Source of the DNA: Isoperla grammatica
Taxonomy: Eukaryota > Arthropoda > Insecta > Plecoptera > Perlodidae
DNA length: 64,000 nucleotides
NCBI GenBank assembly: GCA_945910005.1
Contig: OX246744.1
Span: 39,051,200 to 39,115,199 of the forward strand
Direction: 5' to 3'
Shown: one piece after another, positions 2,495 through 41,400 of the stretch
How positions within the stretch are numbered: position 1 is the first letter of the stretch
How the letters are laid out: every line of letters starts with the position of its first letter
The notes under the pieces: generated by a model
What the model saw: only the letters and a program-made list of their open reading frames with translations
What the model was told of the DNA's origin: nothing
The model's database searches: none
Made by a program: the position numbers and the translations under genes

Positions 2495-5400
2495 GTGAGC
2501 CCAATGTTTGTCATTCTGTCCACTTGTTGAGCAGGAGTGTCAAGACGTAGATTAAGAGTGTTTGTTGTGCTTGCAGCTGTGGTACAGGGCGATGCCATCA
2601 AGCGTCTGGAATGCGCCCTGAAGATGCGAGCAGACCAAGACTGTCTGGTGGACGGGAGTTGGTCGCCGTGGCAACCCTGGGAGAAGTGTCACGGGGAGTG
2701 TGGTCAAACGGGGTTGCAGAGACGATATCGGACCTGCGACAACCCCGAGCCCCAGCTGGGGGGCTCCTACTGCCGGGGGCCAGCGAGTGAGACGAGGTCC
2801 TGCCAGTTACCAGGTAGCGCCACGTCCAGGGGTCATAGCTATACTGCATGGCATGATAGGTGCCCATATTACCTCATAATAATACACGTACTATACACAA
2901 TATTCATATAGATGTACCAACAAAAGTATTCTGAAGCTTAAGACACTGCCGAGTCCAAGGTGACAACTTGATTTTCTACTTCGAAAATTCCTATCATCTG
3001 ATGTAAACAAGTCCATTGGGGATAATTTAAAACCTTCCGTTGGTTACCTGTAACGGTGGGTGTTGCCAAACCGCCTGTGGACTCGACTAAGCCGAACCAT
3101 GCATTTACGAATGTGTGAGAGAATGCCAGTTATCTGTTGATTTTCTTTCAATTGGCTCGGTTGAAAGAGGGTAGACTATGACCTAAGATCGGTATGCGAA
3201 TACTTTCGTTTCGTACCTACATAAGAAACCATTGCACAACAACCGAGACACAGTATTGTGTGGTGTCATTACGTATGTACCCATACAAACCAGAAGAGAT
3301 TTTAATAAATATGTTTGGATGGAATCGAGACATTTAGCCTACCTGTAGCTCTCAACATTAAAAAAAGCAAACTAATACTTTTGACCATTTTCCACAGACG
3401 AAATAGCTCACATTTACAATACAAACTAACCCTAGTAATAACAATAATGTTTCCTGCTCCTCAAAGGAAATAACAAAAACTGTAGCATTTTCCTTAGGCC
3501 TATTTTATTTAATGTCTGTCTTATTAAATTGCTTTACAAAGTTGGTCAATAAATAAAACTACAAATACAATGAGATATAGGAAAAACAGTGAAGAAAACA
3601 AAGTACTGTTCTCTCTTGTTGCCATGTTGAGGCTGCTCCCCCGAGGAATACGAAACGATGGTGTTGGGAGATCCACTACGCAGCTCACAGTACGAATTAA
3701 TCAAAGTCGTCCACGAACGGTTTCCCGCCCTTGCCGACCGATGTCTGACCAACACTTGCCGCTACGAGACGGTCGAGAGCGTCTTGCAGGAAGGAGCCGT
3801 AGGTGACATCCTGTCTATCCTGTTACCCTGATCTTACTCTCACACTACGTGCGTCTTGCACGAGGGAGCCGTAGGTGACATCCTGTCTATCCTGTTACCC
3901 TGATCTTACTCTCACACTACCTGCGTCTTGCACGAGGGAGCCGTAGGTGACATCCTGTCTATCCTGTTACCCTGATCTTACTCTCACACTACGTGCGTCT
4001 TGCACGAGGGAGCCGTAGGTGACATCCTGTCTTACCCTGATCTTACTCTCACACTACGTGCGTCTTGCACGAGGGAGCCGTAGGTGACATCCTGTCTATC
4101 CTGTTACCCTGATCTTACTCTCACACTACGTGCGTCTTGCACGAGGGAGCCGTAGGTGACATCCTGTCTATCCTGTTACCCTGATCTTACTCTCACACTA
4201 CCTGCGTCTTGCACGAGGGAGCCGTAGGTGACATCCTGTCTATCCTGTTACCCTGATCTTACTCTCACACTACGTGCGTCTTGCACGAGGGAGCCGTAGG
4301 TGACATCCTGTCTATCCTGTTACCCTGATCTTACTCTCACACTACGTGCGTCTTGCACGAGGGAGCCGTAGGTGACATCCTGTCTTACCCTGATCTTACT
4401 CTCACACTACGTGCGTCTTGCACGAGGGAGCCGTAGGTGACATCCTGTCTTACCCTGATCTTACTCTCACACTACGTGCGTCTTGCACGAGGGAGCCGTA
4501 GGTGACATCCTGTCTTACCCTGATCTTACTCTCACACTACGTGCGTCTTGCACGAGGGAGCCGTAGGTGACATCCTGTCTTACCCCGATCTTACTCTCAG
4601 TCTCACACTACGTAAACTCATATATGCATAGAAATTTAACAGGCGACTATTGAAGGTAGTCTAATACTAATCTAACTGTTCTGAAACTAAACTAATCTAC
4701 AATATTACCACCCTAATCTAGCCAAGGATTACAATATACAGCTAGTACAGCTATTAAAATTAAAGAATGGTCTAGTTATAAAGTCAAAGTTTTCATTTAT
4801 AACTTTTGGTAATACATTCCTCAAAAATAGCAAAGATATCCAAGTCATTGCAAAACTAGCCTAGTTATGAGCCACCTAATTTATTTAAACATTCAGTTGT
4901 TTAGTATTCTCAACAATCTTTGTTCTTAGCCAATGTAGGCCTATGTTAGTTTGACTTGTATGCCTTCTTGCATAATCATGTGTTATTGTTAATTTCACTG
5001 TAAATCATCTCTACCTAAGCGGGTAGCTAATGTAGCGCAGTATACAAACTATTATTACTCTATAAATACGAATGTATTTATTTATTATTACCAGAATCCA
5101 TCACAAGAGAGCGTGTCTTCTGTCTTCTGTTCTAGATGGACTATTGGATCTCCCTGCTTTGTGTAAAGCTTAATGTCGGGTGCCCTGGTAAGCTTCTTCG
5201 TATTATACTCAAACACAGACAGCTCGTTAGGTTTTAGTTTTACCGAGATTCAGCAGAAATTACTCGGGTTGGAGATAATAGTCGAGGACTCTGAAAAAGC
5301 AAGGAACTCTGGTTCTCGCAGAGGATAAATGATATAGCCAAAAATGTTAAAACGATTCCGTTCAAAAAACGTCTTTGACACATTAATTAATACTTTGTGT

Positions 5401-8400
5401 TATCGTTTTAAGTACGTTAAAGTATGATATTGAAACTATTAAAAGCGTTGGCATTTTGATTCGTTTGACCGATACAAAGTATAGGACTCATCTAGAGACA
5501 GAGAGAGCGATGAAATATAGGTGAACTTTAAAAAAAAATTATAAATTATGATTTATGAACCAAGTTATCTTATAAGGTTGAGAAAATGTTTGAAACAAGG
5601 CAATGTTGCGTTTGTCTTGTTCCGCCAGTACGAGGAGGTTGGACCAACTGGGCTACTTGGACTGCCTGCTCAGCCAAATGTGGCCCCGGCTTGCATTACC
5701 GCACGCGCAGTTGTACCAACCCGCGACCGTCCACCCCAGACGTTGACTGCCAAGGAAAGGGTTTAGACTCTCAAGCGTGTACGGGCCTAGCGTGCGCCGA
5801 CGAGGATGGTAATATTAATTATATCATTATTGGTACGCCTGAGAAATAATTTTTTTTTTTTTTTTCCTTCTTGTGCCAAGATGGCTTTTTCAGCCATTCT
5901 TTTGTCTTACTATCCAATATAAAACTGCTTCCTTTTCTGGCCTGCTCATATCATTGGGCAGGGAGTAATAATTTAATTTGGATTGATTCCTTTTTAAGAT
6001 TGCAGCAGCCAAACTTGAAAATTTGCAATTATTTTTGTAAATGTGTGTTCACGTAAAAATGAGTGTAAATGATATATGCAGAACGTGATTGTTATTGGTG
6101 GATACTTAAGCAAGGTCGATAAATCCCCTGGCGTAGGCTCGTCAAACTCAGTTACTGAACCTCCATTAGGGGATTAACGGACCTCGACACTTTAAATCTT
6201 GACACACACTTAAGTAGTATTTTCACAAGTAGTGGTTGTCACACAGTCACAGCTTGGTTTGAATGATGTACGAGTCAATATGAGATAACTTTGCCAAGCA
6301 ACCAACTACTGTTTGGTTTTGCTTCATTCAGTATCAGACCCTTAAGTTTAGCTCGGGCAAGGAGAGAATGACCGACAACAACCTGTCAAGCCGAAGGTTC
6401 CTAGGTTTTACTTGTAAGGTTAGAATGATTAGCTTATTTCTCAGTCTACAGTACAGATACTTGTCACTGTTCTAGAGTCAGTGGTCTGAGTGGTCAGGAT
6501 GCAGTACAGATACTTGTCACTGTTCTAGACGGCAGCTGGAGTCAGTGGTCTGAGTGGTCAGGATGCAGTACAGATACTTGTCACTGTTCTAGAGTCAGTG
6601 GTCTGAGTGGTCAGGATGCAGTACAGATACTTGTCACTGTTCTAGAGTCAGTGGTCTGAGTGGTCAGGATGCAGTACAGATACTTGTCACTGTTCTAGAG
6701 TCAGTGGTCTGAGTGGTCAGGATGCAGTACAGATACTTGTCACTGTTCTAGAGTCAGTGGTCTGAGTGGTCAGGATGCAGTACAGATACTTGTCACTGTT
6801 CTAGAGTCAGTGGTCTGAGTGGTCAGGATGCAGTACAGATACTTGTCACTGTTCTAGAGTCAGTGGTCTGAGTGGTCAGGATGCAGTACAGATACTTGTC
6901 ACTGTTCTAGACGGCAGCTAGAGTCAGTGGTCTGAGTGGTCTGGATGCAGTACAGATACTTGTCACTGTTCTAGAGTCAGTGGTCTGAGTGGTCAGGATG
7001 CAGTACAGATACTTGTCACTGTTCTAGAGTCAGTGGTCTGAGTGGTCAGGATGCAGTACTGATACTTGTCACTGTTCTAGAGTCAGTGGTCTGAGTGGTC
7101 AGGATGCAGTACAGATACTTGTCACTGTTCTAGACGGCAGCTGGAGTCAGTGGTCTGAGTGGTCAGGATGCAGTACAGATACTTGTCACTGTTCTAGAGT
7201 CAGTGGTCTGAGTGGTCAGGATGCAGTACAGATACTTGTCACTGTTCTAGAGTCAGTGGTCTGAGTGGTCAGGATGCAGTACAGATACTTGTCACTGTTC
7301 TAGACGGCAGCTGGAGTCAGTGGTCTGAGTGGTCAGGATGCAGTACAGATACTTGTCACTGTTCTAGAGTCAGTGGTCTGAGTGGTCAGGATGCAGTACA
7401 GATACTTGTCACTGTTCTAGAGTCAGTGGTCTGAGTGGTCAGGATGCAGTACAGATACTTGTCACTGTTCTAGACGGCAGCTGGAGTCAGTGGTCTGAGT
7501 GGTCAGGATGCAGTACAGATACTTGTCACTGTTCTAGAGTCAGTGGTCTGAGTGGTCAGGATGCAGTACAGATACTTGTCACTGTTCTAGACGGCAGCTG
7601 GAGTCAGTGGTCTGAGTGGTCAGGATGCAGTACAGATACTTGTCACTGTTCTAGAGTCAGTGGTCTGAGTGGTCAGGATGCAGTACAGATACTTGTCACT
7701 GTTCTAGAGTCAGTGGTCTGAGTGGTCAGGATGCAGTACAGATACTTGTCACTGTTCTAGACGGCAGCTGGAGTCAGTGGTCTGAGTGGTCAGGATGCAG
7801 TACAGATACTTGTCACTGTTCTAGAGTCAGTGGTCTGAGTGGTCAGGATGCAGTACAGATACTTGTCACTGTTCTAGACGGCAGCTGGAGTCAGTGGTCT
7901 GAGTGGTCAGGATGCAGTACAGATACTTGTCACTGTTCTAGACGGCAGCTGGAGTCAGTGGTCTGAGTGGTCAGGATGCAGTACAGATACTTGTCACTGT
8001 TCTAGACGGCAGCTGGAGTCAGTGGTCTGAGTGGTCAGGATGCAGTACAGATACTTGTCACTGTTCTAGACGGCAGCTGGAGTCAGTGGTCTGAGTGGTC
8101 AGGATGCAGTACAGATACTTGTCACTGTTCTAGAGTCAGTGGTCTGAGTGGTCAGGATGCAGTACAGATACTTGTCACTGTTCTAGACGGCAGCTGGAGT
8201 CAGTGGTCTGAGTGGTCAGGATGCAGTACAGATACTTGTCACTGTTCTAGACGGCAGCTGGAGTCAGTGGTCTGAGTGGTCAGGATGCAGTACAGATACT
8301 TGTCACTGTTTTAGAGTCAGTGGTCTGAGTGGTCAGGATGCAGTACAGATACTTGTCACTGTTCTAGAGTCAGTGGTCTGAGTGGTCAGGATGCAGTACA

Positions 8401-11400
8401 GATACTTGTCACTGTTCTAGACCGCAGCTGGAGTCAGTGGTGTGAGTGGTCAGGATGCAGTACAGATACTTGTCACTGTTCTAGAGTCAGTGGTCTGAGT
8501 GGTCAGGATGCAGTACAGATACTTGTCACTGTTCTAGAGTCAGTGGTCTGAGTGGTCAGGATGCAGTACAGATACTTGTCACTGTTCTAGACGGCAGCTG
8601 GAGTCAGTGGTCTGAGTGGTCAGGATGCAGTACAGATACTTGTCACTGTTCTAGAGTCAGTGGTCTGAGTGGTCAGGATGCAGTACAGATACTTGTCACT
8701 GTTCTAGAGTCAGTGGTCTGAGTGGTCAGGATGCAGTACAGATACTTGTCACTGTTCTAGACGGCAGCTGGAGTCAGTGGTCTGAGTGGTCAGGATGCAG
8801 TACAGATACTTGTCACTGTTCTAGAGTCAGTGGTCTGAGTGGTCAGGATGCAGTACAGATACTTGTCACTGTTCTAGAGTCAGTGGTCTGAGTGGTCAGG
8901 ATGCAGTACAGATACTTGTCACTGTTCTAGAGTCAGTGGTCTGAGTGGTCAGGATGCAGTACAGATACTTGTCACTGTTCTAGACGGCAGCTGGAGTCAG
9001 TGGTCTGAGTGGTCTGGATGCAGCAAAGAGTGCGGGTCAGGATACAAAAGACGGGAGCGAGTCTGTACCGGGAGTCGCAAGAAGAAAGAGGCGACATTGC
9101 CGGCCATCTCTGGCGGTTGGTACTCACTCACTACATCACACGTGTTAGAACACAGTCGGGGAACAATTAGTTGCTGTCTTTGGCAAGGAAGAAAACATAT
9201 TTCAATTATACAAAAAGGTGCACACGAAGTGAACATGTTAAACACTCAATACAGTGGTTGCCACAGCAGCTTAAAAATTCAAAATTGGTGGGGGAGGGGG
9301 GGGGGGGGTCATTTTGTCTTAGAAAGAAACAACAAATTTTATATAGAATTTAAATCATAATTGAATAGAAACTAGGTAGATATGAAATAATGGCACATTT
9401 AAAAATGAGGTTATGGTTTTACTTAGTAACTAAATGAACGCGTACTGTTTGCAGATAGACGCAACTTGACACCGCGCCAGATCGCCACACAACTGGTGAA
9501 GACGGTTGATGCGGGAAACAGCTGCTCCGGGCCCAGCGAAGAGTTTGAGGAATGCAACCTTAGGGATTGTGACCGTACGTTTACACCTTACGTTGATGCG
9601 TTACATCAGAAAAGAGGCGTATCTAGAACAGATTTGTTTGTCTGTGAACATCAAAATCCATGAGTGTATTGTCACATTGTAACCACAAGTATGAAATGTA
9701 AACAACAGAAATGACGGAAGATTTGCTTTGTTGCCACACTTAGATTGTGCAATATAGACGTTGATGATCACAATAGACTTCACACGCAGCACTAGAGTGG
9801 TGATAGTATGTTTGTAGAACACGGTGCAAGAAAATACTAGTTCACCACATTATGCTACATTACCACATATGTACATTTAAGTTGTGTGAGAGATAGTTTG
9901 CCAACATCTGACCATCTACTCAGGTAAGCTGTTGGCATCTTTTCTCTCACAAAACTTTGTTGCCCAAGTTTTTTGGCAGTCTCTTATTTACACATGAGCA
10001 TATTAAAGCTGGTTTTGCTATAAGGATGATAATTAATGTAGGCTTGTAGTGTTGTGAAATGTGTCGGGTTGGTTGCAGTGGATGGCGGTTGGTCGGCGTG
10101 GGAGAAGTGGTCCGCGTGTTCGGTTACCTGTGGCTTCGGCGTCCAGTACAGAGCCCGATCTTGCAACGCTCCTCCGCGATACGGCAGGGGCTTCCCTTGT
10201 GTGGGCCCCCCCTTGGAGATGCAGCAGTGCTACTTGGGGCCTTGCACAAGTAAGACAAGAACACAAGTCTGTTCATTCCAAGTAGTTAGTCACCATCTTG
10301 CAACGCTCCCCCGCCCCTTGTGTGGGCCCCCCCTTGGAGATGCAGCAGTGCTACTTGGGGCCTTGCACAAGTAAGACAAGAACACACGTCTGTTCATTCC
10401 AAGTAGTTAGTCACCATCTTGCAACGCCCCCCCGCCCCTTGTGTGGGCCCCCCCTTGGAGATGCAGCAGTGCTACTTGGGGCCTTGCACAAGTAAGACAA
10501 GAACACACGTCTGTTCATTCCAAGTAGTTAGTCACCATCTTGCAACGCTCCCCCGCCCCTTGTGTGGGCCCTCCCTTGGAGATGCAGCAGTGCTACTTGG
10601 GGCCTTGCACAAGTAAGACAAGAACACAAGTCTGTTCATTCCAAGTAGTTAGTCACCATCTTGCAACGCTCCCCCGCCCCTTGTGTGGGCCCCCCCTTGG
10701 AGATGCAGCACTGCTACTTGGGGCCTTGCACAAGTAAGACAAGAACACACGTCTGTTCCTTCCAAGTAGTTAGTCACCATCTTGCAACGCTCCCCCGCCC
10801 CTTGTGTGGGCCCCCCCTTGGAGATGCAGCAGTGCTACTTGGGGCCTTGCACAAGTAAGACAAGAACACAAGTCTGTTCATTCCAAGTAGTTAGTCACCA
10901 TCTTGCAACGCCCCCCCGCCCCTTGTGTGGGCCCCCCCTTGGAGATGCAGCAGTGCTACTTGGGGCCTTGCACAAGTAAGACAAGAACACAAGTCTGTTC
11001 ATTCCAAGAAGTTAGTCACCATCTTGCAACGCTCCCCCGCCCCTTGTGTGGGCCCCCCCTTGGAGATGCAGCAGTGCTACTTGGGGCCTTGCACAAGTAA
11101 GACAAGAACACAAGTCTGTTCATTCCAAGTAGTTAGTCACCATCTTGCAACGCTCCCCTGCCCCTTGTGTGGGCCCCCCCTTGGAGATGCAGCAGTGCTA
11201 CTTGGGGCCTTGCACAAGTAAGACAAGAACACAAGTCTGTTCATTCCAAGTAGTTAGTCACCATCTTGCACGCTCCCCCGCCCCTTGTGTGGGCCCCCCC
11301 TTGGAGATGCAGCAGTGCTACTTGGGGCCTTGCACAAGTAAGACAAGAACACACGTCTGTTCATTCCAAGTAGTTAGTCACCATCTTGCAACGCTCCCCT

Positions 11401-14400
11401 GCCCCTTGTGTGGGCCCCCCCTTGGAGATGCAGCACTGCTACTTGGGGCCTTGCACAAGTAAGACAAGAACACACGTCTGTTCATTCCAAGTAGTTAGTC
11501 ACCATCTTTCAACGCTCCCCCGCCCCTTGTGTGGGCCCCCCCTAGGAGATGCAGCAGTGCTACTTGGGGCCCTGCACAAGTAAGACAAGAACACAAGTCT
11601 GTTCATTCCAAGTAGTTAGTCACCATCTTGCAACGCTCCCCCGCCCCTTGTGTGGGCCCCCCCTTGGAGATGCAGCAGTGCTACTTGGGGCCTTGCACAA
11701 GTAAGACAAGAACACACGTCTGTTCATTCCAAGTAGTTAGTCACCATCTTGCAACGCCCCCCCGCCCCTTGTGTGGGCCCCCCCTTGGAGATGCAGCAGT
11801 GCTACTTGGGGCCTTGCACAAGTAAGACAAGAACACAAGTCTGTTCATTCCAAGTAGTTAGTCACCATCTTGCAACGCTCCCCCGCCCCTTGTGTGGGCC
11901 CCCCCTTGGAGATGCAGCAGTGCTACTTGGGGCCTTGCACAAGTAAGACAAGAACACAAGTCTGTTCATTCCAAGTAGTTAGTCACCATCTTGCAACGCT
12001 CCCCCGCCCCTTGTGTGGGCCCCCCTTGGAGATGCAGCACTGCTACTTGGGGCCTTGCACAAGTAAGACAAGAACACAAGTCTGTTCATTCCAAGTAGTT
12101 AGTCACCATCTTGCAACGCCCCCCCGCCCCTTGTGTGGGCCCCCCCTTGGAGATGCAGCACTGCTACTTGGGGCCTTGCACAAGTAAGACAAGAACACAC
12201 GTCTGTTCATTCCAAGTAGTTAGTCACCATCTTGCAACGCTCCCCCGCCCCTTGTGTGGGCCCCCCCTTGGAGATGCAGCACTGCTACTTGGGGCCTTGC
12301 ACAAGTAAGACAAGAACACAAGTCTGTTCATTCCAAGTAGTTAGTCACCATCTTGCAACGCTCCCCCGCCCCTTGTGTGGGCCCCCCCTTGGAGATGCAG
12401 CAGTGCTACTTGGGGCCTTGCACAAGTAAGACAAGAACACAAGTCTGTTCATTCCAAGTAGTTAGTCACCATCTTGCAACGCTCCCCCGCCCCTTGTGTG
12501 GGCCCCCCCTTGGAGATGCAGCAGTTTTACTTGGGGCCTTGCACAAGTAAGACAAGAACACAAGTCTGTTCATTCCAAGTAGTTAGTCACCATCTTGCAA
12601 CGCTCCCCCGCCCCTTGTGTGGGCCCCCCCTTGGAGATGCAGCAGTGCTACTTGGGGCCTTGCACAAGTAAGACAAGAACACAAGTCTGTTCATTCCAAG
12701 TAGTTAGTCACCATCTTGCAACGCCCCCCCGCCCCTTGTGTGGGCCCCCCCTTAGAGATGCAGCAGTGCTACTTGGGGCCTTGCACAAGTAAGACAAGAA
12801 CACAAGTCTGTTCATTCCAAGTAGTTAGTCACCATCTTGCAACGCTCCCCCGCCCCTTGTGTGGGCCCCCCCTTGGAGATGCAGCAGTGCTACTTGGGGC
12901 CTTGCACAAGTAAGACAAGAACACAAGTCTGTTCATTCCAAGTAGTTAGTCACCATCTTGCAACGCTCCCCTGCCCCTTGTGTGGGCCCCCCTTGGAGAT
13001 GCAGCAGTGCTACTTGGGGCCTTGCACAAGTAAGACAAGAACACAAGTCTGTTCATTCCAAGTAGTTAGTCACCATCTTGCAACGCTCCCCCGCCCCTTG
13101 TGTGGGCCCCCCCTTGGAGATGCAGCAGTGCTACTTAGGGCCTTGCACAAGTAAGACAAGAACACAAGTCTGTTCATTCCAAGTAGTTAGTCACCATCTT
13201 GCAACGCTCCCCCGCCCCTTGTGTGGGCCCCCCCTTGGAGATGCAGCAGTGCTACTTGGGGCCTTGCACAAGTAAGACAAGAACACAAGTCTGTTCATTC
13301 CAAGTAGTTAGTCACCATCTTGCAACGCTCCCCCGCCCCTTGTGTGGGCCCCCCTTGGAGATGCAGCAGTGCTACTTGGGGCCTTGCACAAGTAAGACAA
13401 GAACACAAGTCTGTTCATTCCAAGTAGTTAGTCACCATCTTGCAACGCTCCCCCGCCCCTTGTGTGGGCCCCCCCTTGGAGATGCAGCACTGCTACTTGG
13501 GGCCTTGCACAAGTAAGACAAGAACACAAGTCTGTTCATTCCAAGTAGTTAGTCACCATCTTGCAACGCTCCCCCGCCCCTTGTGTGGGCCCCCCCTTGG
13601 AGATGCAGCAGTGCTACTTAGGGCCTTGCACAAGTAAGACAAGAACACAAGTCTGTTCATTCCAAGTAGTTAGTCACCATCTTGCAACGCTCCCCCGCCC
13701 CTTGTGTGGGCCCCCCCTTGGAGATGCAGCAGTGCTACTTGGGGCCTTGCACAAGTAAGACAAGAACACAAGTCTGTTCATTCCAAGTAGTTAGTCACCA
13801 TCTTGCAACGCTCCACCGCCCCTTGTGTGGGCCCCCCCTTGGAGATGCAGCAGTGCTACTTGGGGCCTTGCACAAGTAAGACAAGAACACAAGTCTGTTC
13901 ATTCCAAGTAGTTAGTCACCATCCTGCAACGCTCCCCCGCCCCTTGTGTGGGCCCCCCCTTGGAGATGCAGCAGTGCTACTTAGGGCCTTGCACAAGTAA
14001 GACAAGAACACACGTCTGTTCATTCCAAGTAGTTAGTCACCATCTTGCAACGCCCCCCCGCCCCTTGTGTGGGCCCCCCCTTGGAGATGCAGCAGTGCTA
14101 CTTGGGGCCTTGCACAAGTAAGACAAGAACACAAGTCTGTTCATTCCAAGTAGTTAGTCACCATCTTGCAACGCTCCCCCGCCCCTTGTGTGGGCCCCCC
14201 CTTGGAGATGCAGCAGTGCTACTTAGGGCCTTGCACAAGTAAGACAAGAACACAAGTCTGTTCATTCCAAGTAGTTAGTCACCATCTTGCAACGCTCCCC
14301 CGCCCCTTGTGTGGGCCCCCCCTTGGAGATGCAGCACTGCTACTTGGGGCCTTGCACAAGTAAGACAAGAACACAAGTCTGTTCATTCCAAGTAGTTAGT

Positions 14401-17400
14401 CACCATCTTGCAACGCTCCCCCGCCCCTTGTGTGGGCCCCCCCTTGGAGATGCAGCAGTGCTACTTGGGACCTTGCACAAGTAAGACAAGAACACAAGTC
14501 TGTTCATTCCAAGTAGTTAGTCACCATCTTGCAACGCCCCCCCGCCCCTTGTGTGGGCCCCCCCTTGGAGATGCAGCAGTGCTACTTGGGGCCTTGCACA
14601 AGTAAGACAAGAACACACGTCTGTTCATTCCAAGTAGTTAGTCACCATCTTGCAACGCTCCCCCGCCCCTTGTGTGGGCCCCCCCTTGGAGATGCAGCAG
14701 TGCTACTTGGGGCCTTGCACAAGTAAGACAAGAACACACGTCTGTTCATTCCAAGTAGTTAGTCACCATCTTGCAACGCTCCCCCGCCCCTTGTGTGGGC
14801 CCCCCCTTAGAGATGCAGCAGTGCTACTTGGGGCCTTGCACAAGTAAGACAAGAACACAAGTCTGTTCATTCCAAGTAGTTAGTCACCATCTTGCAACGC
14901 TCCCCCGCCCCTTGTGTGGGCCCCCCTTGGAGATGCAGCAGTGCTACTTGGGGCCTTGCACAATTAAGACAAGAAAACAAGTCTGTTCATTCCAAGTAGT
15001 TAGTCACCATCTTGCAACGCTCCCCCGCCCCTTGTGGGGGCCCCCCTTGGAGATGCAGCACTGCTACTTGGGGCCTTGCACAAGTAAGACAAGAACACAA
15101 GTCTGTTCATTCCAAGTAGTTAGTCACCATCTTGCAACGCCCCCCCGCCCCTTGTGTGGGCCCCCCCTTGGAGATGCAGCAGTGCTACTTGGGGCCTTGC
15201 ACAAGTAAGACAAGAACACAAGTCTGTTCATTCCAAGTAGTTAGTCACCATCTTGCAACGCTCCCCCGCCCCTTGTGTGGGCCCCCCCTTGGAGATGCAG
15301 CAGTGCTTCTTGGGGCCTTGCACAAGTAAGACAAGAACACAAGTCTGTTCATTCCAAGTAGTTAGTCACCATCTTGCAACGCTCCCCCGCCCCTTGTGTG
15401 GGCCCCCCCTTGGAGATGCAGCACTGCTACTTGGGGCCCTGCACAAGTAAGACAAGAACACACGTCTGTTCATTCCAAGTAGTTAGTCACCATCTTGCAA
15501 CGCTCCCCCGCCCCTTGTGTGGGCCCCCCCTTGGAGATGCAGCAGTGCTACTTGGGGCCTTGCACAAGTAAGACAAGAACACACGTCTGTTCATTCCAAG
15601 TAGTTAGTCACCATCTTGCAACGCTCCCCCGCCCCTTGTGTGGGCCCCCCTTTGGAGATGCAGCAGTGCTACTTGGGGCCTTGCACAAGTAAGACAAGAA
15701 CACACGTCTGTTCATTCCAAGTAGTTAGTCACCATCTTGCAACGCTCCCCCGCCCCTTGTGTGGGCCCCCCCTTGGAGATGCAGCAGTGCTACTTGGGCC
15801 CTTGCACAAGTAAGACAAGAACACACGTCTGTTCATTCCAAGTAGTTAGTCACCATCTTGCAACGCTCCCCCGCCCCTTGTGTGGGCCCCCCCTTGGAGA
15901 TGCAGCAGTGCTACTTGGGGCCTTGCACAAGTAAGACAAGAACACAAGTCTGTTCATTCCAAGTAGTTAGTCACCATCTTGCAACGCTCCCCCGCCCCTT
16001 GTGTGGGCCCCCCCTTGGAGATGCAGCAGTGCTACTTGGGGCCTTGCACAAGTAAGACAAGAACACAAGTCTGTTCATTCCAAGTAGTTAGTCACCATCT
16101 TGCAACGCTCCCCCGCCCCTTGTGTGGGCCCCGCCTTGGAGATGCAGCACTGCTACTTGGGACCTTGCACAAGTAAGACAAGAACACAAGTCTGTTTATT
16201 CCAAGTAGTTAGTCACCATCCTGCAACGCTCCCCCGCCCCTTGTGTGGGCCCCCCCTTGGAGATGCAGCAGTGCTACTTGGGGCCTTGCACAAGTAAGAC
16301 AAGAACACAAGTCTGTTCATTCCAAGTAGTTAGTCACCATCTTGCAACGCTCCCCCGCCCCTTGTGTGGGCCCCCCCTTAGAGATGCAGCAGTGCTACTT
16401 GGGGCCTTGCACAAGTAAGACAAGAACACACGTCTGTTCATTCCAAGTAGTTAGTCACCATCTTGCAACGCTCCCCCGCCCCTTGTGTGGGCCCCCCCTT
16501 GGAGATGCAGCAGTGCTACTTGGGGCCTTGCACAAGTAAGACAAGAACACAAGTCTGTTCATTCCAAGTAGTTAGTCACCATCTTGCAACGCCCCCCCGC
16601 CCCTTGTGTGGGCCCCCCCTTGGAGATTCAGCAGTGCTACTTGGGGCCTTGCACAAGTAAGACAAGAACACAAGTCTGTTCATTCCAAGTAGTTAGTCAC
16701 CATCTTGCAACGCTCCCCCGCCCCTTGTGTGGGCCCCCCCTTGGAGATGCAGCAGTGCTACTTGGGGCCTTGCACAAGTAAGACAAGAACACACGTCTGT
16801 TCATTCCAAGTAGTTAGTCACCATCTTGCAACGCTCCCCCGCCCCTTGTGTGGGCCCCCCCTTGGAGATGCAGCAGTGCTACTTGGGGCCTTGCACAAGT
16901 AAGACAAGAACACACGTCTGTTCATTCCAAGTAGTTAGTCACCATCTTGCAACGCTCCCCCGCCCCTTGTGTGGGCCCCCCCTTGGAGATGCAGCACTGC
17001 TACTTGGGGCCTTGCACAAGTAAGACAAGAACACAAGTCTGTTCATTCCAAGTAGTTAGTCACCATCTTGCAACGCTCCCCCGCCCCTTGTGTGGGCCCC
17101 CCCTTGGAGATGCAGCAGTGCTACTTGGGGCCTTGCACAAGTAAGACAAGAACACACGTCTGTTCATTCCAAGTAGTTAGTCACCATCTTGCAACGCTCC
17201 CCCGCCCCTTGTGTGGGCCCCCCCTTGGAGATGCAGCAGTGCTACTTGGGGCCTTGCACAAGTAAGACAAGAACACAAGTCTGTTCATTCCAAGTAGTTA
17301 GTCACCATCTTGCAACGCTCCCCCGCCCCTTGTGTGGGCCCCCCCTTGGAGATGCAGCAGTGCTACTTGGGGCCTTGCACAAGTAAGACAAGAACACAAG

Positions 17401-29400: not shown

Positions 29401-32400
29401 GGACATAAAAAAAAAAAAAAAAAAAAAACAAAAACAAACAAACCAACAAACAAACAAACAAAAAAACAGAACGAAGTGCCATAAGAGTCAAGTGGAAACG
29501 CTCGCTTCGCTCGCTTAATCATACCGGAAGTCACGTGATAATAGAGACTTCCGACCCAGTCTTTCCTCCACCTTCGTCGGGTGATCAAGGCCATGTCAGG
29601 CCGAAACTGTCTCGATGTTTTGTATATATCTTTTTTGTGTTCCTATCGACTCCGAAGGCCGCAACTACTACAAGGTAAGCTGTTGGTTCCCTCCTATCCT
29701 TCCCCCCAAGCTCAAACCCAGCCGTTAGGCAAACTTACACAAATTCACATAACTAGTCATATTGTAATTTCTCTTAGAGATAAATTAGACATGTTGTGTA
29801 GACCACATTTGTCCGACTGCATAATTGCCATGCAACAAACGTAATGACTCACCAGCGTAGCTCAGCTGTGTCTCCTTGCAGGGCAGCCAACTGTCAATGT
29901 AGCTGAGCTGTATCTCCTTCATTTCATTTCCTTATTAACCGGCAACAGGGGACAGCCCCACAAGTGCGATACAATAAAAATAATAGCTCGTGTCTTACAG
30001 GGCAGCCAACTACTAGCGATGCGGTGGTCTACTCAATCAAAGACAACGGCAGAGTAACACACCTGACGGCCTCTTCTTACCACAACCGGGAGGCGGTGGA
30101 AGGTTTCTACCAGTGTCGGGTGCTGAAGGAAGGGAGAGAGACCATTCTCGTAGCGTACGGAGTTTCCTTGCTTGATTCATACATAGGTAACCATTCTTTG
30201 CTTCATTCTGGATGTTGACACTCTAGTCTAGTCCCACTTACAAGTTGAACAACACCAATCATTACAAGAAGTTATAGTCATTTCACTTTAGTTTTGTTTG
30301 TTTTAGGTATAAGAGGTGTGATCGACATAGTCATAATAATTCTTGCACCGTTGGCACTACTACTGGTCATGATCTTCCTAATCTTCATATGTTGCATGTA
30401 CAGCCACGATAACTACACGTAAGTGCCGTCATTCCACAACTATCAATATATGACCTAGTTTTGAACCGGCCATCTTGGTATACTTGGCATTGGCTTCATA
30501 CTTGTAAGATTACATTGACATAGTTAGTGGGTAGGTTCCACAGCCTTGTCATTGGGTTTGAAATATAGGCAGAGTCCCAGCCGCTACCAGTTTGAATCTG
30601 CGCGCCCATCGGGATACCACCGCTAGATGTCGTTGATCGGCGCACTGATTGTTTCGCCCTCTGCAGTTGGTATAGGTTACTAGCTCGCGAGGCCGGCCTC
30701 TTCTGCTCCGTCAATAAGTTGACACTAGCGCTCAGCGCGGGGGTATAGTGAACTACTTCAATACGCTACTACGCGCACAATTTGAAAACTGTTGGTTTTA
30801 CGACGGGATTTATCATAATACTATTTGATGTATGAAGGATGCGCAGCGCGGAGAATAATTTAAAATACATCGAAAGTGAACAGTGAACACAAATTGAATT
30901 AATATAGACACTGGGCTGATTTCGTATTGATGTTTTTATACCGTTATTGCTTTTTAACTGAGGTAAAATAGTACTGGGTGATATGTACAAAAAATGAAAT
31001 CTTCGTGAACATGTTAGATAACATAATATTTAGTTTAAGAGTTCAGCTTTTGAGTAGCAAGGTAATTTCTAATCCCCATCATGTTTGTCCAACCTTGTTT
31101 TAACGTAGTTTTGTTTTGTGTTTGTGTCACAACACGGATTTTTTAAATTATTTCTTTAAACCTAACCGCACGCATTAGAAAAGGGCGTGCTGTAATATAC
31201 GAGTACTGAGTGACGGAAGCCATGCACGAGTATTTTGTTATTGTGCCCACAAAATTAGCGATTTATATCACCCATTAACTTCGTACAATTTCTCCCTTAA
31301 ATCACCAACATTAAAAACAATACCCAACACTGTAACACTAGAATTACATACTTTTACATATTTCTTATTTCTCGGCATATATTTTTTTGACACACTTTTT
31401 CTCACTTATGAAGAAAATTGTGTATACTATTTCTATCCACTTGACAAAGAGTTCCAACGTGCCTGTTCAATCCCCAATACGTATTACATTACCCTGTTTT
31501 TCAACAAGTCAACTACCGAAGCAAAGGAAGTTGAATTTTATTGTATAGGTCTCTGTTTGCTTTGGTTGTTTTGCTGATCAGGAAAGAACTACATGGCGTG
31601 GCTAAAAATTAAGATTTTAGTTTGGTTTACGTGCTATACATGTGGAGTTTTGTGCATTCAATTTCGACGTAAATTATAAATCTAAAACAATATCAGAAGT
31701 AATAACTACAAAAAGTAAGCCCCTCCCCCCCCCCCCCCCCCCCCCTCCCATGCTATAAACTATTATTTTGTTACGTTGGCATTGGAGTATGTAAAATAAA
31801 AAATAGGCGTGATGAAATAAGCTAGACGTGTAAAATATGGCTCTCATGTCACGTTTTGAAGATGGAAATATATATGGTAAAATATATGTTTAATTCTAAT
31901 TTAAGAATATCAAACAATGCTTGAAACTAACGACACATGCGACGAAACAAATGGCCAATATGTTGCAATGAACGTCTGCCAAGTGACGGGCACAACAACC
32001 CGCCCCTGCCAGGGGTGACGCTAAGGGGAGGCGAGGGGGGGCAGTCCCCCCCCCAGTCGCCCCCCCCCCCCCCCAACCAGTATTTACTACTTGACAATCG
32101 CTATGCATTCAAAACCGCGTTCAATTGTCAGATACATATTTTATTTATTTACATTTTAAGTGTGTACTGTATACTGTAAAGATATACTCTAATAGGGACT
32201 AATTATTTAATTAAAACCCAACTCTAGTAATCTAACCGACCATGTTCTGATGACATCACGAAGAACGCAACGAACATTTCATGACACTCCTTCAGTTGGT
32301 TCAATTATTCGGTGACTATTAACAGTTTCTATTAATTTTACGTGACTTCACTCATTGTTAGCGCAGGTTGCGAGTGCACCTTCCGTGTCTTACGTTAACA

Positions 32401-35400
32401 ACAATCGCCTTTGAGATTTGATAATATTATCCATTGAAAAATCAATCGTTAATGTCATCAATTTGCATCAAGTTGTCCTGCGGTTTGATGCTGAGTGCCA
32501 GAATGAGCATAACACATTTTCATCCAGTTTAGTACAATAATCCGAAACCCCCAAGGGTTCACGATGCCGTGGGGAGGGGGGGGGGGTGTATTTTACACGT
32601 CCAGATTGCGACAGCGTTTGCGCCCCCAACTGGCATACTCGCCCCTGAATCGCCACCCCTAATGTAACATCCTAGCGTCGCCACTGGCCCCTGCCCATTG
32701 CTCGCTATTCGAGCTATTCCAGGAACCATTCAGCATTCTTCCTAGAAATATTCACGGTTGATTGCCCAGAAAGATTACAGCGCAGAAGACGTGGGCCAAA
32801 ATAAAACACATCACGCACTGGATGTGGCATTTTTATGACGAACTAAAAACAGCAACAATATTATTTGTTTTATAACTACAATTATATACTGTTAGCGTTG
32901 AGTGAATATCTGTTTTATCTGTTATATCTGGGTATAGTGTGCAGGAAGTTATTGGATAACAAGTGTGCTCATGATGCTAAGTATTCCCTCCCCCCCCCCC
33001 GGGCACAACACACACACACTGGCAACAGCATCCGTGCTTGTGCAATCCACCTCACATCGCTATATTTAAGCTATATTTCATAGTTATTGTGATCGGCTTT
33101 GTATTCATAATCATAAATTATATTTTGTATAATTAATAATATTACATAAATAAGGTATTTGGGGAATGAATGTGACTTTGTTTTTTTCAACGAAATTTAA
33201 CAAAAATCACTTTTTTATGTTACCTGTTACTGTATCTTTCCAATTATGTAAGGCGCATGCTTCAAATAGTACGTATTTATGTTTTAAATCAATTTTATTC
33301 TGTTGAATTAGCTAGAGCCTATGCCTAGGCATATGCACCCCATTCGCCATTGTTCAACATTAGGATGAAGAGAAATATCTCTGCAGCAAAATAAGTGCTT
33401 TGGTTCTTTGTTATCAGCAGATACACCAACTTAAACATAAGTTACTGTGTAACAATCACAGTATTTTCGATAAATTACCCCTTCTTCAAATTTGAAGGAG
33501 GGGTAATTTGAAAAAGGGGTTATTATTTTAAAATAAATTTATACCCAAAAAATAAATTACCCCTTCTTCAAGTTTGCGGGCGATATTCGGTTTCATTTCA
33601 TACGTTGGCTACTGAATCAACGTAGATGATTCCCCTTCCCTCCCACGCTGATTGTAGCATCCAGTAGGCTGTGTGCATGTTGCTAATGGAGAATGGCGTG
33701 CATAGACATAGGCTCTAGCCAATTCAACATAATTAAATTGATTTAAAACATAAATACGTACTATTTGAAGCATGCGCCTTACATAATTGGTAAGATACAG
33801 TAACAGGTAACATAAAAAAGTGATTTTTGTTAAATTTCGTTGAAAAAAACAAAGTCACATTCATTCCCCAAATACCATAAATAATAATGAAATGATTACT
33901 TTTTATATACAGAAAATGTAAGCGTTCTACGGATTTCGTTGCTAAACATAGATTGAGGACTTCGAAGTCAACTAAGTACGCGGAAGGCTTAGTTTTCGAC
34001 TGATCGCTAAAATTCAAGTTATCCCATTGTTCACTAGTTGCCAGGAATACTATGTGGGCTACTCAAAAAATATATTCGATTGATTAAAACCCACATTTTT
34101 CTTTATCTTTGTGTTTCGTTTTCGGCGTTGCTCAAGATTACAGGTGTGATAACAACGGTGCCCCTCACGGCTGGCTCGGCTATTAGACCGCACATCTTAG
34201 AGTAATTGGCCGTGGTCGATTATCATAGCTTCGGCTTTAGAAGGCGACTGTTACGCACCCAAGCTACGTTCCTATTAACAATATTGTAGCGAAAATATAA
34301 ACGAAGTCCAAATAAAACATTTCAGTCTTTAGGAGGGGCACAAGAGCTTGTAACGAAACGTGTGTTCTGCGTCGATAAGTTATCCCGACACATCCGGTAC
34401 AATAAGCTGGTCAGGCAAAACAAAGCATTTCTCAAATATTTCAAGCAGCTAGCTATTAGCTTGGCATTTGCAGGTGGATATGACAAATCATGCAAGTAAC
34501 GATACTACTGATGGTTCACTAGCAGCGGACGTATTGGATGTAATTGTACTTCGGTGTTCCGGGGAGGCCCATCCTACCTGTCAAATTAGAAAGGTCTACA
34601 CTAGAGCAGGCGACATCCTAGTTTCTTTGAACCCACAAAACGCCGGGCTCCGGTTAAAAAGACAAGAGTTCAATCATTTTCTCAAGTTATGTTTCAGTTA
34701 GAAGAAAGAGGAAGAGGTTAGGAAAGAGGATATGGATACAGAGTGTTCACTGGGAGCAGTGATATTTGATTATTCTCGTTTTGTAATACATTTTGTATTC
34801 TGTTGGCAACAGCTTTGGCTGCTGAAACTATTATTTATTCCGTAAACGGTTTTTTACATGAAATTGTGGAGGATGAATAAATAAATTGCGAATCCAAATA
34901 CCACGACAGCGGACGGTCTCGTCAATGAACCCGCGTTCCGGGAATTTTGGCGTTATCTGCATTCCACCACCTGTTCCGTAGCCAGCCAGCTTGCACTTTA
35001 CCTTGTGGTCTTACAGTTTCACTGGGATGGACAAGCCGACAACGACCCACCATTATCGTCAAAATGCCGATAAGCTCGGATCGGGATGTTGTACACGTTA
35101 TGACCCTACTTAATTGCATGCGTTCTGATACAGCTATATTACATCTTGTAAACATCTTACGTATTTCAATAAAACAAGGCGAAATAAAAAAATTCGAGAT
35201 CATATCTTTGGGTCTAGCCAGTGCTTCCCAAAGTGTGGGTCGCGAGCTGAGTTCCAATGGTTCGCGAAAATATTTGGAACAGCGAACATTTTGAAATTAC
35301 TTTTATTGAAACGAAGATCGAAAAAAGAGATCGTGTTGAGCATTCAGTTCCGATGTAAATAATAAATTTACAAAATGTCAGAAGTAGTAAATATAATAAA

Positions 35401-38400
35401 CAAAAGAGACCCCCCCCCCCCCCCAATTTAGCTAGGTGGGTCGCGAATTTTTGTTGATCTTACATTGCGTCACGGTTCTGGAAAGTTGGGGAGCACTGGT
35501 CTAGGCTATAAACTATTATTTTGTAACGTTGGCATTGGAGTATGTAAAAGAAAAAATAGGCGTGATGAAATAAGCTAGACGTGTAAAAAATATGGGTCTC
35601 CTGTCATGTTTTAGAGATGGGAATATATTTTAAAAACTATGTTTAATACAAATTTAAGAATATTAAACAAGGCTTGAAAGTAACGACATATGCGACGAAT
35701 GGCCAATATGTTGCAATGAACGTCTACCGAGTGACCGGCACAACAACCCGCCCCTGCCCCTTGCTCGCTATTCGAGCTTTTCCAGGAACCTTTCAGCATT
35801 CTTCCTAGAAATATTCACGGTTGATTGCCCAGAGAGATTACAGCGCAGAAGACATGAGCCAAACAAAAACACATCACGCACTGGATGTGGCATTATGATG
35901 AATAGGTGTTAACTTCATTTTTAATCTACCGTGTTCATGTCCATGTTATTAATCTATATAAATATTATTTATTTTATAACTACCGTTATAGACTGGTAGC
36001 GTTGAGTAAATATCTGTTTGTGATAACCTGGTCCTAGTTATATAAAGAAATAAATGTGTGGGGTATAGTGTGCAGGAAGTTATTGGATAACAAGTGTGCT
36101 CAAGTATCCCCCCTCCCCCCCGCCACACAAACACACACACACAAACACAAACTCACACTGGCATACATCAATACGAAATCAGCCCAGTGTCTATATTAAT
36201 TCAATTTGAATTCCCTGTTCACTTTCGATGTATTTTAAATTATTCTCCGCGCTGCGCATCCTTCATACATCAAATAGTATTATGATAAATCCCGTCGTAA
36301 AACCAACAGTTTTCAAATTGTGCGCGTAGAAGCGTATTGAAGTAGTTCACTATACCCCCGCGCTGAGCGCTAGTGTCAACTTATTGACGGAGCAGAAGAG
36401 GCCGGCCTCGCGAGCTAGTAACCTATACGAACTGCAGAGGGCGAAACAATCAGTGCGCCGATCAACAACATCTAGCGGTGGTATCCCGATGGGCGCGCAG
36501 ATTCAAACTGGTAGCGGCTGGGACTCTGCCTATATTTCAAACCCAATGCTGTAACTGTAACCCGTTGTAGGTATTTCAAACCCAATGGCCTTGTGAGTGT
36601 TTCAGATGTTGGGACTATCTCTGTCTGCACCTTCCTTGGGGGGCCGGCAAGCCGTTGTCTCGTCCCACAGCCTTGTGAGTGTTTCAGATGTTGGAACTAT
36701 CTCTGTCTGCACCTTCCTTGGGGGGCGGCAAGCCGTTGTCTCGTTCCACAGCCTTCTGAATGTTTCAGATGTTGGGACTATCTCTGTCTGCACCTTCCTT
36801 GGGGGGCGGCAAGCCGTTGTCTCGTTCCACAGCCTTGTGAGTGTTTCAGATGTTGGGACTATCTCTGTCTGCACCTTCCTTGGGGGGGCGGCAAGCCGTT
36901 GTCTCGTCCCACAGCCTTGTGAGTGTTTCAGATGTTGGGACTATCTCTGTCTGCACCTTCCTTGGGGGGGCGGCAAGCCGTTGTCTCGTCCCACAGCCTT
37001 GTGAGTGTTTCAGATGTTGGGACTATCTCTGTCTGCACCTTCCTTGGGGGGGCGGCATACCGTTGTCACGTTCCAATGCCTTGTGAGTGTTTCAGATGTT
37101 GGGACTATCTCTGTCTGCACCTTCCTTGGGGGCGCGGCAAGCCGTTGTCTCGTCCCACAGCCTTGTGAGTGTTTCAGATGTTAGGACTATCTCTGTCTGC
37201 ACCTTCCTTGGGGGGGAGGCAAGCGGTTGTCTCGTTCCACAGCCTTGTGAGTGTTTCAGATGTTGGGACTATCTCTGTCTGCACCTTCTTTGGGGGGGGG
37301 GGGGGCAAGCCGTTGTCTCGTTCCACAGCCTTGTGAGTGTTTCAGATGTTGGGACTATCTCTGTCTCCACCTTCCTTGGGGGGCGGCAAGCCGTCGTCTC
37401 GTTCCACAGCCTTGTGAGTGTTTCAGATGTAAGGACTATCTCTGTCTGCACCTTCCTTGGGGGGGAGGAAAGCCGTTGTCTCGTTCCACAGCCTTGTGAG
37501 TGTTTCAGATGTTGGGACTATCTCTGTCTGCACCTTCCTTGGGGGGGCGGCAAGCCGTTGTCTCGTTCCACAGCCTTGTGAGTGTTTCAGATGTTGGGAC
37601 TATCTCTGTCTGCACCTTCCTTGGGGGGGCGGCAAGCCGTTGTCTCGTTCCACAGCCTTGTGAGTGTTTCAGATGTTGGGACTATCTCTGTCTGCACCTT
37701 CCTTGGGGGGGCGGCAAGCCGTTGTCTCGTTCCACAGCCTTGTGAGTGTTTCAGATGTTGGGACTATCTCTGTCTGCACCTTCCTTGGGGGGGCGGCAAG
37801 CCGTTGTCTCGTTCCACAGCCTTGTGAGTGTTTCAGATGTTGGGACTATCTCTGTCTGCACCTTCCTTGGGGAGCGGCAAGCCGTTGTCTCGTTCCACAG
37901 CCTTGTGAGTGTTTCAGATGTTGGGACTATCTCTGTCTGCACCTTCCTTGGGGAGCGGCAAGCCGTTGTCTCGTTCCACAGCCTTGTGAGTGTTTCAGAT
38001 GTTGGGACTATCTCTGTCTCCACCTTCCTTGGGGGGGCAGCAAGCCGTTGTCTCGTTCCACAGCCTTGTGAGTGTTTCAGATGTTGGGACTATCTCTGTC
38101 TCCACCTTCCTTGGGGGGCCGGCAAGCCGTTGTCTCGTTCCACAGCCTTGTGAGTGTTTCAGATGTTGGGACTATCTCTGTCTCCACCTTCCTTGGGGGG
38201 GCAGCAAGCCGTTGTCTCGTTCCACAGCCTTGTGAATGTTTCAGATGTTGGGACTATCTCTGTCTCCACCTTCCTTGGGGGGGCGGCAAGCCGTCGTCTC
38301 GTTCCACAGCCTTGTGAGTGTTTCAGATGTTGGGACTATCTCTGTCTGCACCTTCCTTGGGGGGGCGGCAAGCCGTTGTCTCGTTCCACAGCCTTGTGAG

Positions 38401-41400
38401 TGTTTCAGATGTTGGGACTATCTCTGTCTGCACCTTCCTTGGGGGGGGGGGGCAAGCCGTTGTCTCGTTCCACAGCCTTGTGAGTGTTTCAGATATTGGG
38501 ACTATCTCTGTGTCCACCTTCCTTGGGGGGCCGGCAAGCCGTTGTCTCGTTCCACAGCCTTGTGAGTGTTTCAGATGTTGGGACTATCTCTGTCTCCACC
38601 TTCCTTGGGGGGCCGGCAAGCCGTTGTCTCGTTCCACAGCCTTGTGAGTGTTTCAGATGTTGGGACTATCTCTGTCTGCACCTTCCTTGGGGGGGGGGGC
38701 AAGCCGTTGTCTCGTTCCACAGCCTTGTGAGTGTTTCAGATATTGGGACTATCTCTGTGTCCACCTTCCTTGGGGGGGCGGCAAGCCGTTGTCTCGTTCC
38801 ACAGCCTTGTGAGTGTTTCAGATGTTGGGACTATCTCTGTCTGCACCTTCCTTGGGGGGCCGGCAAGCCGTTGTCTCGTCCCACAGCCTTGTGAGTGTTT
38901 CAGATGTTGGGACTATCTCTGTCTGCACCTTCCTTGGGGGGCCGGCAAGCCGTTGTCTCGTCCCACAGCCTTGTGAGTGTTTCAGATGGTGGGACTATCT
39001 CTGTCTGCACCTTCCTTGGGGGGCGGCAAGCCGTTGTCTCGTTCCACAGCCTTGTGAGTGTTTCAGATGTTGGGACTATCTCCGTCTGCACCTTCCTTGG
39101 GGGGGCGGCAAGCCGTTGTCTCGTTCCACAGCCTTGTGAGTGTTTCAGATGTTGGGACTATCTCTGTCTGCACCTTCCTTGGGGGGCGGCAAGCCGTTGT
39201 CTCGTTCCACAGCCTTGTGAGTGTTTCAGATGTTGGGACTATCTCCGTCTGCACCTTCCTTGGGGGGGCGGCAAGCCGTTGTCTCGTTCCACAGCCTTGT
39301 GAGTGTTTCAGATGTTGGGACTATCTCTGTCTGCACCTTCCTTGGGGGGGCGGCAAGCCGTTGTCTCGTTCCACAGCCTTGTGAGTGTTTCAGATGTTGG
39401 GACTTTCTCTGTCTGCACCTTCCTTGGGGGGGCGGCCAGCCGTCGTCTCGGTCCACAGCCTTGTGAGTGTTTCAGATGTTGGGACTATCTCTGTCTGCAC
39501 CTTCCTTAGGGGGTCGGCAAGCCGTTGTCTCGTTCCACAGCCTTGTGAGTGTTTCAGATGTTGGGACTATCTCTGTCTGCACCTTCCTTGGGGGGGCGGC
39601 AAGCCGTTGTCTCGTTCCACAGCCTTGTGAGTGTTTCAGATTTTGGGACTATCTCTGTCTCCACATTCCTTGGAGGGCGGGCAAGCCGTCGTCTCGTCCC
39701 ACAGCCTTGTGAGTGTTTCAGATGTTGGGACTATCTCTGTCTCCACCTTCCTTGGGGGGGCGGCAAGCCGTTGTCTCGTTCCACAGCCTTGTGAGTGTTT
39801 CGGATGTTGGGACTATCTCTGTCTGCACCTTCCTTGGGGGGGCGGCAAGCCGTTGTCTCGTTCCACAGCCTTGTGAGTGTTTCAGATGTCGGGACTATCT
39901 CTGTCTGCACCTTCCTTGGGGGGGCGGCAAGCCGTTGTCTCGTTCCACAGCCTTGTGAGTGTTTCAGATTTTGGGACTATCTCTGTCTCCACCTTCCTTG
40001 GGGGGCCGGCAAGCCGTTGTCTCGTTCCACAGCCTTGTGAGTGTTTCAGATGTTGGGACTATCTCTGTCTGCACCTTCCTTGGGGGGGCGGCAAGCCTTT
40101 GTCTCGTTCTACAGCCTTCTGAATGTTTCAGATGTTAGGACTATATCTGTCTCCTCTTTCCTTGCAGGGCCTATAAGCCGTTGTCTCTCGTTGATTCGGA
40201 GGGCAGCTGGGAGCCGCCGTTGCCGCCCATACCCTCCGGCTCCCGTGACGAGGTACCGACTTTAGTTCAGTCCAGTATTTAACTCAATTCAAAATTACAT
40301 GATTTATAAAAAAAAAACTTATTAAATTAACAAATTAAAAAATTGGTACCCAGTCCAGTATTGAATCCAAGATCTAAGTAGGCCTATTCTAACTTGGTGG
40401 TGGAAAATTTACTGTCACTCGGAAAAAACTTTTATTATTTACAAACAGATTTTTTTAAAAGCTTCTCCCTAAACACATTTACCTCAAACATAAACACTAC
40501 AAAGTAATAGGTAGCAACATAAGCCTACTGATTGCATGTAAATGTATTAAAGACACCTTGGAGGCTAGTCTAGGATCAGCTACCAAGCCGAGAGCAAACC
40601 GCTAAACATGACCGAACAAGTTACAGGAGTTCCCGCTCGCATCCCTCTCGAGTTGGTCCTCCGAGCAGGTCAACGTTAAGAGCCATCCGTACTTAGAGCG
40701 GTATAGGGCGTTCCCGTGCTAATTGTTTCTGGTGATTGAGTGAGAACCGTTTGCCCTAGAGAGTTCCCGTTGTCTCAGTTTTCAAGTGGACAGTGTCCGA
40801 TTCTTCTGCCGTTTTGCACTTTTTGATAATTATTTATAGTTTAGGCCCCATGGCAGGTGATAAAATCTTGCAATTATCGAATTTTTTGATACTCTACTTC
40901 ATAATATGATTTCAAAACCGTCCACGTTGTCCTAGAAAAAAATTGAAAACAGGAAACGATTTCGATTAATAGTTTTCTCGTAATCAGGGGAAACAAATGA
41001 ATATGTGTGCGCGCTGCTGATCAGTGTTTGCTCAGACAAGCCACTTTCACCCCCAACTCCTCCAACTTCCCCTCCGCTGAGAACCACGTGCACGGAACAA
41101 AGGAGGATCCATCCCGAGCGGCACAGTAAACTGACAAATTATTGCTACCCATAAATCTGACAGGTTTGAAGACTTGCCGATAGCTCGCAACTTGTTTTCA
41201 CAGATTTGAGTGTTAATCTTTCTCGACTCGACGTTCCCGGTTTGCCCGACAATAATGCAGTTCCTAATTGCGTAGACATTGCGTCCTCATTACGTAGACT
41301 TCCTGATTCTGTTAGATTTTGATATTGGGTGGATAGTGGACAAATGTAATGTTCCCCGGTAGCCCAAGCGGCAACAACAGTCGGAGGTTCTGAGTTCAAT

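Follow-up and report, generated by a model that had tools for sequence, protein, structure and literature searches.

Mirage-type minisatellites across exon-intron junctions of a TSP1/laminin G gene and of protein-kinase exons in Isoperla grammatica

Mirages are tandem minisatellites that lie across exon-intron boundaries, and they were reportedly first noticed in lancelet Adh. Their units take in both the exonic and the intronic side of a single boundary, they occur at both 5′ and 3′ boundaries, they are continuous with an authentic exon, many but not all repeats carry AG or GT, and their length is unstable; further hallmarks are a boundary copy that escapes homogenisation, undisturbed regular splicing and somatic instability. 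In the portions available of two papers, lancelet mirages are described in Adh (Adh3), globin (BflGb6 and BflGb9), troponin C and PGBD5 (PMC3087553, PMC3902484), and their origin is called unclear (PMC3087553). A gene encoding TSP1 and laminin G (LamG) domains in the plecopteran Isoperla grammatica carries seven arrays of similar build (arrays A–G). It is found in a stretch of 64,000 nt, analysed in full and referred to below as the window (C14:39051200-39115199, in an 874,298,753-bp assembly of 603 contigs).

As far as the lancelet cases are set out in the available text, they share with the present arrays boundary-spanning units at donors or acceptors (10–160 bp in lancelets), repeated splice signals, unstable length and an unexplained origin. 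They differ in having a chordate host, three to six units in the globin case and gene-by-gene reports, whereas the present arrays are in an insect, reach 65 units and 7.8 kb, number seven in one gene and come with a rate for kinase exons. An earlier note on this DNA held that no described system matches; to judge from the same portions of text, lancelet mirages already do (PMC3087553, PMC3902484). Read from the assembled sequence, the arrays are mirages in anatomy, differing in host, number and size, and what is new is the insect host, the rate for kinase exons and the array size. A literature search that had most subscription papers outside its scope found no report of mirages beyond lancelets, and a term search of the accessible part of PMC3152781 gave no match.

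Human internal tandem repeats (ITRs), which lie at exon-intron boundaries of genes in segmental duplications, are a looser relative than mirages. According to the part of the source available, they too are minisatellite expansions touching exon-intron boundaries in duplicated genes, but their units average 30 bp, repeated four times, and they form novel introns or are kept in exons (PMC2812944), whereas the exons described here are read through in one frame without the arrays. The Rogers model, as cited in the available text of PMC3087553, explains intron gain through tandem duplication of AG/GT sites. In both cases a splice site is copied in tandem, but the model creates introns, whereas the present arrays appear to lengthen them.

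All seven arrays are on the forward strand, as is the gene, and are given here with unit lengths and copy numbers from Tandem Repeats Finder (TRF). Three are on the donor side: array A (3779–4599; 72/65 bp, about 11.5 copies) at exon E3 (3632–3798), array C (10194–18019; 121 bp, 64.7 copies) at E8 (10079–10249) and array E (21858–23349; 113 bp, 13.2 copies) at E12 (21734–21946). Four are on the acceptor side: array B (6449–9023; 53/64 bp, about 44 copies) at E6 (8984–9115), array D (18023–18650; 157 bp, 4 copies) at E9 (18511–18770), array F (23952–25212; 127 bp, 9.9 copies) at E13 (25108–25260) and array G (36588–40187; 82 bp, 43.9 copies) at E18 (40168–40252). In every array the unit straddles a splice site of the rebuilt gene, with sequence on either side of it, and the array continues into the exon concerned (7/7 in both respects), a continuity with authentic exons like that of mirages. 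The earlier note had described seven separate arrays with these unit lengths, three crossing donors and four crossing acceptors, and each touching a real exon; TRF recovers all of them in the same places, and the rebuilt gene agrees on the junctions and the adjoining exons. Its exon numbering holds for exon 3, while each later number falls one short, as if E4 (5136–5187; 52 bp) had been overlooked; the true donors are those of E3, E8 and E12, and the true acceptors those of E6, E9, E13 and E18.

The rebuilt gene (2434–40252) has 18 exons that join into a frame of 939 aa without stops, with AG preceding E2–E18 and GT following every exon. Besides those named above, the exons are E1 (2434–2494, beginning at ATG), E2 (2577–2813), E5 (5629–5808), E7 (9455–9574), E10 (19288–19506), E11 (21170–21316), E14 (25794–25968), E15 (26105–26251), E16 (30001–30186) and E17 (30307–30418). 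E18 is the last exon rebuilt, and the 3′ end of the gene was not found. The exons are defined by splice sites and frame, and a protein of Anabrus simplex aligns by tblastn with E2–E12 and part of E15, leaving E1, E13, E14 and E16–E18 unaligned. E13 and E18, which bear arrays F and G, are therefore drawn from splice sites and frame alone. The Anabrus protein (42% over 82%) is the only match covering most of the host protein among the best 120 of 222. For a hippo-like kinase of the same genome, no match among the best 120 of 6781 is above 86% identity at 94% or more of query length (up to 91% over 86%); many of these matches are from insects and a few from other arthropods, among them a centipede, spiders and a horseshoe crab, and the host is presumably without a close annotated relative. 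Four TSP1 domains and laminin G domains were identified by Pfam in a 963-aa version of the protein with a too-early start of E12, and a hydrophobic segment is read as a putative transmembrane helix.

Splice dinucleotides are kept in most array copies. GT is present in 12/12 junction-like copies of array A, 64/65 of array C and 13/14 of array E, and AG in 17/17 copies of array B (matched only among units with an 11-bp insert), 4/4 of array D and 9/9 of array F. In array G, GCAG is retained in the exon-proximal copy, and GG is found in 7/9 matched copies (of about 44 units). Many, but not all, repeats of arrays A–G thus carry the splice signal, as in mirages. The real boundary copy of array A matches the set at 0.908, against 0.983 among the copies, while array C shows the reverse (0.983 against 0.964); copy counts in this comparison include spurious matches for arrays E, D and F.

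With 41% of the window and 22% of the surrounding 80 kb made up of arrays, coverage alone is uninformative on how often junctions lie inside them. Placement was examined with each array collapsed to one unit, counted as one event, on an exon model with the earlier start of E12. Seven of the ten arrays in the window span junctions, while of ten units placed at random a mean of 0.82 crossed exactly one exon edge; seven or more junction-spanning units were seen in 0/200,000 random trials, and with placement confined to the gene p = 3.5e-5.

Junction arrays were also found in protein-kinase exons. The sample comprised 76 of 139 genome matches, almost all of them bounded within the domain, each with about 200–350 bp of flank per side; it is from one gene family and was chosen by list order, domain position and size, not at random. 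Exon edges are those of the hidden Markov model matches, checked by eye at array loci, and arrays were called by TRF (period ≥30, score ≥200) or by self-BLAST of all 76 loci. Junction-crossing tandem duplications, whose units include both sides of a single boundary as in arrays A–G, are present at 10/76 exons, about one in eight. The tendency thus reaches beyond one gene, in partial support of the earlier note's interpretation. Nine are donor arrays (L040, L049, L059, L066, L069, L079, L082, L092 and L101), and one (L031) is a degenerate acceptor duplication of two copies that are 84% identical. An additional short repeat at the L101 acceptor (27 bp, 96%) was missed under the self-BLAST settings that covered all 76 loci. 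Both 5′ and 3′ boundaries are therefore affected, with three donors and four acceptors in the window and nine donors, one clear acceptor and one short one among the kinases.

TRF detects eight of the ten kinase junction arrays, the L092 donor repeat and the L031 pair being seen by self-BLAST only, and a single TRF array is off-junction (8 versus 1; p = 9e-5 under uniform placement). This array (L092, 469–611) has a 61-bp unit with a donor-like GAA/GTGAGT motif (slash at the junction), and may perhaps be a mirage of the preceding exon. The remaining off-junction repeats are a weak 24-bp pair in L084 and others that are shorter or lower-scoring, such as a 38-bp pair near the L037 donor (score 102). 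Self-BLAST of the 76 loci found no duplication wholly within an exon match.

The genomic background was sampled in 12 evenly spaced 10-kb stretches of contig C1 (120 kb) and in 80 kb of flanks around the window (L009–L016). The C1 stretches hold 10 arrays covering 5% of their bases, and the flanks 20 arrays, with a cover four times that of C1. At the C1 rate, 1.3 arrays would be expected at the 152 kinase junctions, where TRF found eight (p = 8e-5). Among the 30 background arrays, 25 have a GC content of 0.41–0.68 and five of 0.28–0.38, the background being 0.38–0.41. Kinase exon matches have a mean GC of 0.506, against 0.361 in the flanks of loci without donor arrays, and the mean is 0.573 in exons with donor arrays compared to 0.497 in the other 67, L031 included (p = 0.005). 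By quartile of exon GC, donor arrays number 0, 1, 3 and 5 of 19. Exons probably bear arrays more than introns because arrays favour GC-rich DNA and exons are GC-rich tracts; GC explains much of the clustering of arrays at exons, perhaps not all of it. Exon methylation was considered separately as a seed, and an exon CpG observed/expected ratio of 0.94 gives no sign of it.

The TSP1/LamG gene is itself repeated: about 27 copies exist, alike in exon scores and exon spacing. They lie on both strands at C14:26-41 Mb, C17:24-31 Mb and the small contigs C44 and C108, and so dispersed an amplification is unusual for a multi-exon gene. They were found through a TSP1 search with 147 matches, of which 108 on C14, C17, C44 and C108 were kept and 39 on other contigs dropped; matches were assigned to exons 2, 5, 6 or 8 by profile span. 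Exon 2 was matched 29 times, 27 times together with exon 5 and 24 times with the full series (window copy included). Measured as exon-to-exon distances, the E5–E6 span that holds array B ranges from 1409 to 14097 bp (coefficient of variation (CV) 0.72; 24 copies), the longest of which may be all array or part transposon, and the E2–E5 span that holds array A ranges from 2245 to 4933 bp (CV 0.21; n = 27). The E6–E8 span, array-free in the window, is nearly constant (1083–1101 bp; CV 0.005; 24 copies). Length is thus unstable between gene copies, rather than between alleles.

Array sequence was compared in one gene copy besides that of the window, a C17 copy (L108) with the shortest E5–E6 span. 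Its array B has 11.5 units, against 44.5 in the window, and array C is present with at least 8.9 units; in both arrays the units are the same as in the window. The arrays therefore predate at least that duplication, and unit number has changed since.

Across the seven window arrays, an eighth array described below and the nine kinase donor arrays, unit length is divisible by three in 5/17, with no sign of selection for reading frame on unit length. Use of the second donor is predicted to give a stop codon or a frameshift in 10/12 donor arrays, and a longer protein at L079 and L082. The extra copies therefore behave as intron, and use of the exon-proximal site is predicted to be needed for correct splicing.

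The arrays are mirages that were probably seeded as short tandem duplications in GC-rich exon ends and kept only where the copies splice out with the intron. At the outset, a junction-crossing segment of roughly 50–210 bp, now present in tandem, would have been duplicated. Duplications wholly inside an exon would shift or lengthen the protein and presumably be purged, in keeping with their absence from the 76 sampled exons, while junction-crossing copies would be harmless if the spliceosome picks the exon-proximal site, as predicted. Unit number could then, in line with the length variation among gene copies, change by unequal exchange or slippage. Exons would be affected more than introns through the preference of tandem arrays for GC, a preference seen as a correlation and here taken as a possible cause.

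GC-biased seeding with selection for copies that splice out appears the likelier explanation when set against a process directed at junctions, in which transcription- or R-loop-linked nicking would act at exon ends, donors especially, and base composition would be secondary. Several observations weigh against the GC-based account. Donor arrays exceed acceptor arrays in the kinases (9 versus 1; p = 0.02), a bias that GC alone does not predict; it is weakened when the short L101 acceptor repeat is counted (9 versus 2; p = 0.065). After matching for GC, 2.6 junction arrays are expected from the C1 stretches, against eight observed (p = 0.006), or 4.1 from C1 and the array-rich flanks together (p = 0.055). 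The junctions exceed GC-matched DNA 2–3 fold, and there may be a residual junction effect; mirages may also be present in the GC baseline, since unannotated exons could lie in the random stretches. Exons with and without arrays in the window gene do not differ significantly in GC (0.597 and 0.525; p = 0.13), and exon-proximal splicing at the arrays is at present a prediction from the sequence.

The donor excess and the residual 2–3 fold excess favour the junction-directed process, as does the little obvious microhomology at joins inspected by eye, which also discounts microhomology as a driver. That process nevertheless seems unlikely, since array-bearing kinase exons depend on GC, no skew is common to array-bearing donors (−0.15 to 0.27), so that an R-loop/GC-skew signature was rejected, and acceptor arrays outnumber donor arrays in the window gene. 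With the kinases and the window gene pooled, donors and acceptors number 12 versus 5 (p = 0.14), or 12 versus 6 with the L101 repeat (p = 0.24). A broader proposal is a doubtful possibility: in this lineage minisatellites would arise preferentially at exon ends, and most of all at donors, with junction-directed duplication tagging about one in eight exons and driving intron growth.

Chance is improbable as an explanation. On this reading, the genome is so rich in minisatellites that some arrays would fall on junctions in any case, and with array cover of 5% in C1, 22% in the flanks and 41% in the window the junction share alone would be unremarkable; taken as independent seeds, however, 7/10 window arrays and 8/9 kinase TRF arrays span junctions, far above uniform placement. 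A function for the arrays as decoy or regulatory splice sites, tuning splicing or intron length, is slightly less probable still. Nearly every matched copy in arrays A–F keeps its splice dinucleotide, as such a function might suggest, but homogenisation can preserve sites without selection, AG is mostly lost in the matched copies of array G, and the array B span varies ten-fold between gene copies. Although tandem arrays are hard to assemble and these are known from one assembly alone, an assembly artefact is very unlikely, because array spans vary widely while the array-free span next to them hardly varies across 24 gene copies (CV 0.5%), and also in view of the distinct variants carried by the units and the location of the two-copy cases on other chromosomes.

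The eighth array in the window (59727–62316, forward strand; 91 bp, 28.6 copies by TRF), which the earlier note overlooked, has a unit of the acceptor-plus-exon-start type, including the putative acceptor junction GTGTTGCAG/GCAAGCGTCTGACG (slash at the junction). No exon adjoins it, and so the continuity with an authentic exon seen in mirages is lacking. Its last unit is broken off at ACCATTATAATAATATG, some 16 bp inside the exon. Three words from the exonic part of the unit are absent from the rest of the window, and a search for exact 16-mers of the unit, reaching 60 kb downstream and 20 kb upstream, found none. The other two arrays, at 57058–59283 (pyrimidine-rich, 49/74 bp) and 41462–45025 (43/82 bp), have no junction or exon visible by eye.

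Intron 17 of the host gene contains an inverted repeat (30672–36400) that bounds a stretch of the intron, with arms about 5.7 kb apart. Its 31-bp core, at 30691 and 36377, is matched exactly at 30 places in the genome, often in pairs and in some cases near other gene copies. Related open frames at 19904–20776 and 27112–28539 are inserted in introns 10 and 15, and are presumably ends of Penelope-like elements (GIY-YIG-like). On the reverse strand, the window carries a 1390-aa open frame (47998–52170), which we take to be a Ty3/gypsy-type gag-pol retrotransposon.

Mirages have been a little-known feature of lancelet genes. The 10/76 kinase exons and the gene copies, as natural replicates, make the birth rate of mirages, their GC dependence and their possible donor bias directly measurable, and the same material makes their effect on intron length and splicing measurable in a chromosome-scale arthropod genome. 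If the junction-directed process were true, a general mutational force on splice junctions, so far overlooked, would be common to lancelets and this arthropod.

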